This document shows positions 9,638 to 17,190 of a stretch of 64,000 nucleotides of DNA, one piece after another. The notes below the pieces were generated by a model. The model worked only from the letters and a program-made list of their open reading frames with translations, was not told where the DNA came from and ran no database searches. Both the position numbers and the translations under genes were made by a program. Location of the stretch: positions 62,001-126,000 of the forward strand of contig NZ_JASAMB010000016.1 of NCBI RefSeq assembly GCF_029948125.1, written 5' to 3'. Within the stretch, counting starts at the first letter, position 1; the number at the start of each line of letters is the position of its first letter. This DNA is from Catellatospora sp. KI3 (GTDB lineage: Bacteria > Actinomycetota > Actinomycetes > Mycobacteriales > Micromonosporaceae).

Positions 9638-9775
9638 CCGCCGCGGTCAGGGCGGGGTCGGGCGGCTCTCCGCGATCGCCGTCGTGTCGGAGGATGTCGC
9701 GGCAGGGCTTCTTGACGCGGGTCGTGGCGGCGCATACGGTACGCGCGACAACCGAATATCTCGCTGAACGAACCA

Positions 9776-9957
9776 CGGCGGGAGAGTCCCGGCACCACCG
9801 GGACGCCGAAGGAGCAACTCTCCCCGGAATCTCTCAGGCCCATGTACCGCCGCGGCGAGGCGAACTCTGGAAAGTCGGGACCCGACGGTCCCGCGCCCAC
9901 GGTGCAAACCGTCCTGTGACGGTGAAGCTCTCAGGCTCCGATGACAGAGGGGGAGGC
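9776..9957 (+). promoter_or_regulatory. Tandem glycine riboswitch (two aptamers)
   Basis: Two consecutive glycine aptamers. Aptamer 1 (about 9776-9875) has the hallmark GGGAGAG start, GCCGAAGGAGCAA, the core GGAATCTCTCAGGC and GGCGAACTCTGGAAAG; aptamer 2 (about 9880-9957) has GGTGCAAACC, GGTGAAGCTCTCAGGCTCC, GATGACAGAGGGGGAGG. It ends about 50 bp before the gcvT start, so glycine binding would switch on gcvT-gcvH-glyA. This explains most of the 368-bp gap between the esterase gene and gcvT; 9638-9775 otherwise holds only the presumed promoter, which I cannot place. Confidence 0.95.
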
Positions 9958-16848: not shown

Positions 16849-17061
16849 GGGGGACTCCTGACTGTCCGCCGTCGCGGCCGGTGAGGGTGGCCGGCAGGGG
16901 GCACGACAGGCGGGACGGATAGACGATCCCGTATACCGGCGATCCGAGCACGATCTTGTTATGAAATTGGCACGAACGTCGTGTGAAGACAGAACCTGAT
17001 CGCGGCGGCCCTGCGCGGTATCTCCGTTGCCGCGTACGGGCCGGGCTGGGAGCATCGACGC

Positions 17062-17188
17062 GGGCCGGTGGCCGAGTCAGGTCGATGGCGAGCCCCGGGT
17101 CGTTGGCCGTGCACGCACGGCGACCCGGGGCGTGTGGGGGTAGCTGGCGTGCCGGTCCCCACCGCGGGTTCGAATCCCGTCCGGCCCG
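17062..17188 (+). ncRNA. tRNA-like RNA with extended arm in place of the anticodon loop
   Basis: A 127-nt tRNA-shaped sequence. Acceptor: GGGCCGG (17062-17068) with CCGGCCC (17181-17187), extendable by one pair. T8 G9 follow. D arm 17071-17089: GCC/GGC stem, loop with A14, G18-G19 and A21 equivalents. T arm 17164-17180: GCGGG-TTCGAAT-CCCGT, with TTC and A58 invariants. A long type-II variable arm is 17132-17163 (GTGGGG/CCCCAC). Where a 5-bp/7-nt anticodon arm belongs there is a continuous helix: 17092-17102 pairs perfectly (11 bp) with 17121-17131, topped by CCGTG/CACGG with a 4-nt CACG loop. No anticodon is readable and no CCA is encoded. The D arm resembles serine tRNAs as I remember them. 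It ends 3 bp before the convergent stop at 17191. The rest of the 342-bp gap (16849-17061) holds the HNH promoter region, nothing recognised. Confidence 0.65.
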
Positions 17189-17190
17189 CT

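Follow-up and report, generated by a model that had tools for sequence, protein, structure and literature searches.

A tRNA-Ser-like RNA gene of actinomycetes with a long hairpin in place of the anticodon arm: a candidate non-decoding tRNA mimic

What might a gene do that holds the parts of a tRNA in their proper order and lacks the one that reads the codon? This question is raised by a locus of Catellatospora sp. KI3, found in a 64-kb stretch of DNA (64,000 nucleotides, called here, as a whole, the window). An initial annotation, made from the letters alone, had described at positions 17062–17188 a tRNA-like gene of the tRNA-Ser type without a usable anticodon. All the tRNA parts that it listed were indeed present in the sequence and in the fold, and both of its wider claims were supported: a long hairpin stands in place of the anticodon loop, and the long variable arm and G73 agree with a tRNA-Ser type. 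The features are given below, A1 being the alignment of copies of the window's own type.

17027–17032, + strand: possible −35 hexamer TTGCCG, 17 nt before the −10-like hexamer (by eye)
17050–17055, + strand: −10-like hexamer GAGCAT, 6 nt before G1; hexamer position conserved in window-type copies
17062–17188, + strand: tRNA-like RNA, from position 1 to position 73, CCA not encoded (sequence, fold, homologs, covariation)
17060–17068, + strand: acceptor 5' strand, 7 bp (17062–17068) plus two extra upstream pairs (sequence, fold; 99.4% paired in A1)
17071–17089, + strand: D arm, with a 3-bp stem, GCC (17071–17073) and GGC (17087–17089), and a loop with G17080–G17081 (sequence, A1 alignment)
17092–17131, + strand: long hairpin replacing the anticodon arm, with 11 bp, a TTGG bulge (17103–17106) and an apical hairpin (sequence, fold, A1 covariation)
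17111–17116, + strand: hairpin-tip 6-mer GCACGC, proposed kissing partner 1 (loop-loop complementarity across copies)
17134–17162, + strand: type-II variable arm (sequence, fold; 96.1% paired in A1)
17147–17152, + strand: variable-arm loop 6-mer GCGTGC, proposed kissing partner 2 (loop-loop complementarity across copies)
17164–17180, + strand: T arm with loop TTCGAAT (sequence, permissive Rfam match; 99.1% paired in A1)
17181–17189, + strand: acceptor 3' strand, with G73 at 17188 and a C at 17189 (sequence, fold, covariation)

The acceptor is formed by GGGCCGG (17062–17068) and CCGGCCC (17181–17187), extended by the pairing of 17060–17061 with 17188–17189, and is followed by the U8 equivalent at 17069. 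Acceptor, D arm, T arm and T loop come in the order of a decoding tRNA, and the long variable arm and G73 are those of a tRNA-Ser; where a decoding tRNA has a 7-nt anticodon loop with U33, the element has instead the long hairpin. Its 11-bp helix is made of GCCCCGGGTCG (17092–17102) and CGACCCGGGGC (17121–17131), and is capped, beyond the bulge, by an apical hairpin in which CCGTG (17107–17111) pairs with CACGG (17116–17120) around the loop CACG (17112–17115). The hairpin tip GCACGC and the variable-arm loop GCGTGC are exact reverse complements of each other.

The minimum free energy of 17060–17190 was −84.9 kcal/mol, compared to a mean of −70.9 for shuffled sequences (z −3.47), and none of 200 shuffles folded as well. 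This result, together with the conserved homologs found in relatives, ruled out a chance fold, in agreement with the earlier opinion that chance assembly was unlikely. ARAGORN reported no tRNA anywhere in the 64-kb window and, among 45 loci with copies, called one at the element in a single case (L155, as tRNA-Asn). Over the window element, Rfam gave no match at the gathering score, and weak or partial matches under permissive filters; seven relative loci likewise lacked a gathering match with default filters. Under permissive filters, one relative (L137) scored 32.5 bits against the Rfam tRNA family (RF00005), whose gathering score is 29, and the window element stayed below that score.

When 200 genomes of the window's family were searched at the DNA level, 46 of them yielded matches at E 0.001 or better; about two dozen of the matches listed cover most of the element at 71–81% identity, and the others are short pieces. 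Alignment of 22 sequences (A1) provided a covariance model, R1. The initial annotation had proposed such a search of related actinomycetes, and with R1 it returned, over 350 family genomes, a match at E 0.001 or better in 65 and a match of at least 63 bits in 42 (47 such matches), the remaining listed matches reaching 52.5 bits at most and being mostly of tRNA-Ser length. Within the window's genus, 6 of 11 genomes matched. An exact pattern recovered 15 stretches, in Actinoplanes, Catellatospora, Dactylosporangium, Micromonospora, Jidongwangia and Virgisporangium. The element is single-copy in its own genome and present twice in some others; in one of these (L045, G160) the two copies lie 3.6 kb apart on opposite strands. 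No plasmid matched the window element. A phage gene was ruled out by the lack of matches in phages and, by exact pattern, in viral contigs.

Several copies are degraded: L135 lacks both middle arms, L056, L128 and L052 lack their 5' halves, and L125 and L127 lack their T arms. The upstream sequence of L135 (G329) is nearly identical to that of L083 (G264), and L135 retains only acceptor, D and T parts, its long arm and most of its variable arm being gone. The element is thus accessory, being missing from most genomes searched and broken in some. Relatives lacking the element, or uncompensated mutations in the long helix, had been named beforehand as signs of a pseudogene or a chance fold. The first was observed in part, in that most family genomes lack it (42 of 350 carry a match of at least 63 bits) but intact copies exist; the second was not seen in any intact copy.

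A search of the class with R1 led to a second type of the RNA. One locus (L134, G491), scoring 53 bits over 121 nt, presented the same architecture with another sequence, and when used as a DNA query against 199 genomes of its genus it matched over a long stretch, among the matches listed, in 23, two of which show a match to part of the query; the further matches listed were short and mostly confined to the T-arm end. The genus is Streptomyces, as judged by its named plasmid matches: four plasmid records carry this type, three from Streptomyces (linear plasmids included) and one from Embleya. In 12 of 150 genomes of the Streptomyces-type family, and in 5 of 17 genera, a second model, R2, gave matches with E values of 1e-11 or lower. 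When 394 genomes sampled from the class were searched with it, scores above 100 bits were found, among the matches listed, in four genomes, all of the Streptomyces-type genus; the other listed matches were of tRNA length and reached 67 bits at most. The range seen thus comprises two families, and weak relatives may exist at or below the scores of tRNA-Ser.

The Streptomyces type has an acceptor helix of 13 bp, the six additional pairs being paired in 95.3% of cells of its alignment (A3), and one position of the extension shows U-A, U-G, C-G and G-C. It is also preceded, by some 30 nt, by a covarying leader hairpin (97.6% of cells paired), the loop of which is often self-complementary by eye (GCGCGC, CACGTG, TGCGCA) and might permit dimers. 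R1 gives this type (53 bits) a score no better than that of ordinary tRNA-Ser, and with R2 the window element is not listed among the matches at E 1e-5 or better. The apparent kinship of the two types therefore rests on the shared architecture, and they may have either a common ancestor or two separate origins from tRNA-Ser. A joint MAFFT alignment misaligned the arms, and the types were analysed in separate alignments.

The proposed structure is borne out by covariation in both types. Over the nested helices and the loop pairing, 93.2% of cells are paired in A1 and 96.2% in A3, compared to 38–51% with slid partners, and changes on both sides were found at 17 of 43 pairs in A1 and 15 of 41 in A3. 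With shuffles that, like the partner swaps described below, leave shared ancestry in, none of 500 attained the observed value on any of five covariation measures in either alignment. The initial annotation had considered the long helix compensatory, and this stood in so far as, in A1, four pairs with two-sided changes occur in each of the two helices of the long arm, the one at its base and the second one. The uninterrupted run of 11 bp did not prove general: in many window-type relatives a small internal loop separates the two helices, and the window has the closed version.

The loop-loop complementarity goes, like the second type, beyond what had been noticed before. Among the window-type copies, 34 of 40 can form all six tip:variable-loop pairs, G-U being allowed, and among those of the Streptomyces type 21 of 25 can do so. 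The window-type set consists of the best 41 of 59 matches (86 bits or more), minus one dropped for a loop gap, with the register of L059 and L061 set by hand; it leaves out six truncated or diverged matches at 63–72 bits, and the others are background or fragments. When partners were swapped, the observed mean was reached in none of 5000 trials in each type and pooled, and in 6 and 10 of 5000 when distinct loop pairs only were counted. In A3, four of the six loop pairs change on both sides, a number reached by 1 of 500 shuffles. The first A1 alignment alone, in which two rows were out of register, did not place the loop pairing above shuffles, 142 of 500 reaching its paired percentage. Later-found copies, collected with a model that does not score the tip and loop pairs together, had all six pairs in 7 of 10 cases. 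The loops were taken from the alignment; folding each arm alone often picked the wrong loop in the window type, and it gave at least six consecutive pairs in 35 of 66 copies, compared to fractions of 0.417 for swaps within a type and 0.000 for swaps across types. Compensated loops include GTACGC:GCGTAC (L121), GCACAC:GTGTGC (L123), GCGTAC:GTACGC (L059 and L061), GTGCCT:GGGCAC (L199) and AGACTC:GGGTCT (L200). The geometry is common to both types and the letters are not (tip GCACGC versus AGGTCC), which is in our view the strongest argument that the two loops would pair.

The relation to tRNA-Ser is apparent from the searches themselves, since ordinary tRNA-Ser genes form the main background of both R1 and R2: at 25 of the 26 background loci submitted to ARAGORN a tRNA-Ser was called at the matched place, the other (L133) being a tRNA-Asp. 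The element shares with tRNA-Ser the 7/5 stack, the D and T loops, the long variable arm, a single unpaired base ahead of the T stem, and G73. The long variable arm and G73 are identity elements for seryl-tRNA synthetase (SerRS). In contrast, tRNA-Ser has a 7-nt anticodon loop where the element has a long hairpin with a tip complementary to the variable-arm loop, and it lacks the 13-bp acceptor helix of the Streptomyces type. One locus (L132, G010) contains a dense cluster of 16 tRNA genes in 2.1 kb, among them a tRNA-Ser(GCT) with a D arm very like that of the element by eye; it is a possible source of the RNA.

Regarding expression, a strict consensus scan at the window element found neither promoter nor terminator. 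Of 42 window-type copies, 36 have a NANNNT hexamer with its last base at −7 or −6 relative to G1, compared to 2.4 copies on average and 8 at most for other positions, and 41 have a pyrimidine at −1. This −10-like hexamer at a fixed distance and the pyrimidine at −1 suggest that transcription of the window type would begin at G1 or beside it. For nine pairs of relatives, sequence identity within the element was 0.78–0.95, compared to 0.48 for random sequence; it was 0.49–0.84 in the 50 nt before the element and 0.46–0.65 farther upstream, and 0.33–0.83 in the next 30 nt downstream and 0.47–0.53 from 30 to 180 nt. Behind the RNA, at +9 to +26, 17 of 41 window-type copies have a tail motif, TGCCRY, compared to 3% in shuffles; the motif is absent in the window, and by eye, its core could pair with the D-arm strand GTGGCAG. 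An upstream inverted repeat, considered as an operator, was present in 3 of 41 copies and was dropped.

Taken as a whole, the structure and conservation of the element are, on the sequence data, very probably as described here, and the reading we prefer, to which we would assign a probability of roughly three in four, is that of a non-decoding RNA that mimics a tRNA and whose target is left open. The gene would stand alone and encode a non-coding RNA of serine-tRNA descent, which has kept the type-II body and exchanged the anticodon arm for a long hairpin, so that the place of the anticodon is occupied. Its RNA, transcribed in the window type from near G1, would close upon itself by the kissing of the two loops within one molecule. 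Given the tRNA body, the Ser-type variable arm, G73 and the occupied anticodon position, this closed, tRNA-shaped RNA would be seen and bound by tRNA-recognising proteins and escape use by the ribosome.

SerRS is the first candidate partner, whether the RNA acts as a decoy or as a seryl carrier, because this enzyme recognises its tRNA by the variable arm and is not known to need the anticodon; that it is the actual target must nevertheless be considered doubtful. Comparison of 28 carriers with 26 genomes without an intact copy (in five of which, G102, G113, G149, G215 and G118, there is a fragment or a degraded or diverged copy) gave no sign of a dedicated second SerRS: 52 of the 54 genomes have one SerRS over the cut-off, and the two with two, G001 and G017, are both without the RNA, so SerRS copy number does not follow the RNA. 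The absent CCA and the 13-bp acceptor helix of the Streptomyces type speak against aminoacylation without processing and favour a decoy over an aminoacyl donor.

It may be, tentatively and with the odds somewhat against so complete a picture, that these RNAs form an undescribed actinomycete class, a tRNA-Ser withdrawn from decoding by a kissing lock and serving as a tRNA-shaped regulator in trans (for example as a SerRS decoy or seryl carrier), encoded by a compact 200-bp gene in two families. No description of this RNA was recognised in the open-access literature searched and, to our knowledge, few RNAs have a whole tRNA body and yet do not decode. If the types arose separately from tRNA-Ser, the same kissing lock would have evolved twice. 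The covarying closure over the anticodon position would offer an example of contact between anticodon arm and variable arm in a tRNA fold, and the presence of the family in antibiotic-producing actinomycetes would make the targets of tRNA mimics among tRNA-binding proteins testable.

The alternative that survives best, improbable as it is, regards the locus as a compact mobile or island-borne element, the RNA of which mainly serves its own spread or shields a mobile element from tRNA-directed attack. The conservation of about 200 bp in otherwise unrelated places, the two copies in some genomes and the copies on linear Streptomyces plasmids fit this notion; against it, the searches of phages and, by exact pattern, of viral contigs were negative, and no integrase or transposase gene next to the element is shared across 46 loci. 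These loci, of both types, did not share a neighbour gene of any kind: among 437 predicted ORFs, no cluster covered more than five loci, and the clusters found reflect synteny in two groups or common families, as judged by eye.

Slightly less probable still is a tRNA mimic working like the bacterial Y RNA YrlA, with the tRNA-like module engaging proteins that bind tRNA or degrade RNA, PNPase for instance, while the paired ends bind a protein of the Ro60/Rsr kind. In our ranking, YrlA would be the closest RNA to work alike: it does not decode, and it combines a tRNA-like module with a stem formed by its paired ends, according to the part of the source consulted (PMC8394870). The element has the tRNA-like module, and the Streptomyces type adds the covarying 13-bp end helix and the leader hairpin. 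However, the window's genome has no match to the TROVE domain of Ro60/Rsr, and such matches, which cover part of the domain, were found in 15 of 28 carriers versus 9 of 22 non-carriers in the window's family, and in 8 of 13 carriers versus 11 of 13 non-carriers in the Streptomyces genus; a Ro60 partner was discarded, there being no association with the RNA over these 76 genomes. The seven loci without an Rfam gathering match also count against a YrlA-like RNA, and the full variable arm and the loop-loop contact are not mentioned for YrlA in the part of that source consulted (PMC8394870).

That the gene is a relic, namely a tRNA-Ser enlarged by an insertion in the anticodon loop, is very unlikely: degraded copies exist and the element is accessory, but in intact copies the helices and loops covary and conservation is far above that of the flanks. 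On these grounds a pseudogene was rejected for the intact copies, and the earlier suggestion of a tRNA-Ser pseudogene grown by duplication was not sustained for them. Least likely of all is an intron-bearing tRNA that would decode once the hairpin is excised, for, even though many relatives have a 5-bp stem at the base of the arm and then a small internal loop, like an anticodon stem with an insert, removal of the hairpin does not, by eye, consistently leave a U33 or an anticodon, the arm in the window is without such an internal loop, and the hairpin tip is preserved in its complementarity to the variable arm.

As for the preferred reading of a non-decoding tRNA mimic, some other RNAs invite comparison. 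Mimicry of tRNA with pseudoknot-like contacts is found in tmRNA and in viral tRNA-like structures. A tmRNA combines a recognised tRNA-like domain with a tag reading frame, and ARAGORN recorded none for the element in the window and the 45 loci; the viral structures end viral genomes, whereas the element is a stand-alone chromosomal RNA. Allo-tRNAs and selC* tRNA-Cys (Mukai et al. 2017) are, in the portion of the source consulted, unusual tRNAs, some of them with SerRS identity elements and without a proven decoding role; they have an anticodon and 8/4 or 9/3 acceptor branches, 8/4 in selC* (PMC7609411). The acceptor/T arm of the element is 7/5 in both A1 and A3, not divided as 8/4 or 9/3 like the 12-bp branch of allo-tRNAs, and the window type has no anticodon loop.

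Two minor observations concern the surroundings. At one locus (L201, NZ_CP108555.1) the locus tags jump from RS48450 to RS48440 across the element, so that an unlisted RNA gene or pseudogene may be present at this place in the original record. In the window itself, the only Rfam matches at gathering level are two tandem glycine riboswitch aptamers at 9769–9949 (+ strand), and the ORFs behind them read by eye like gcvT, gcvH and glyA, as in an ordinary glycine cleavage operon.
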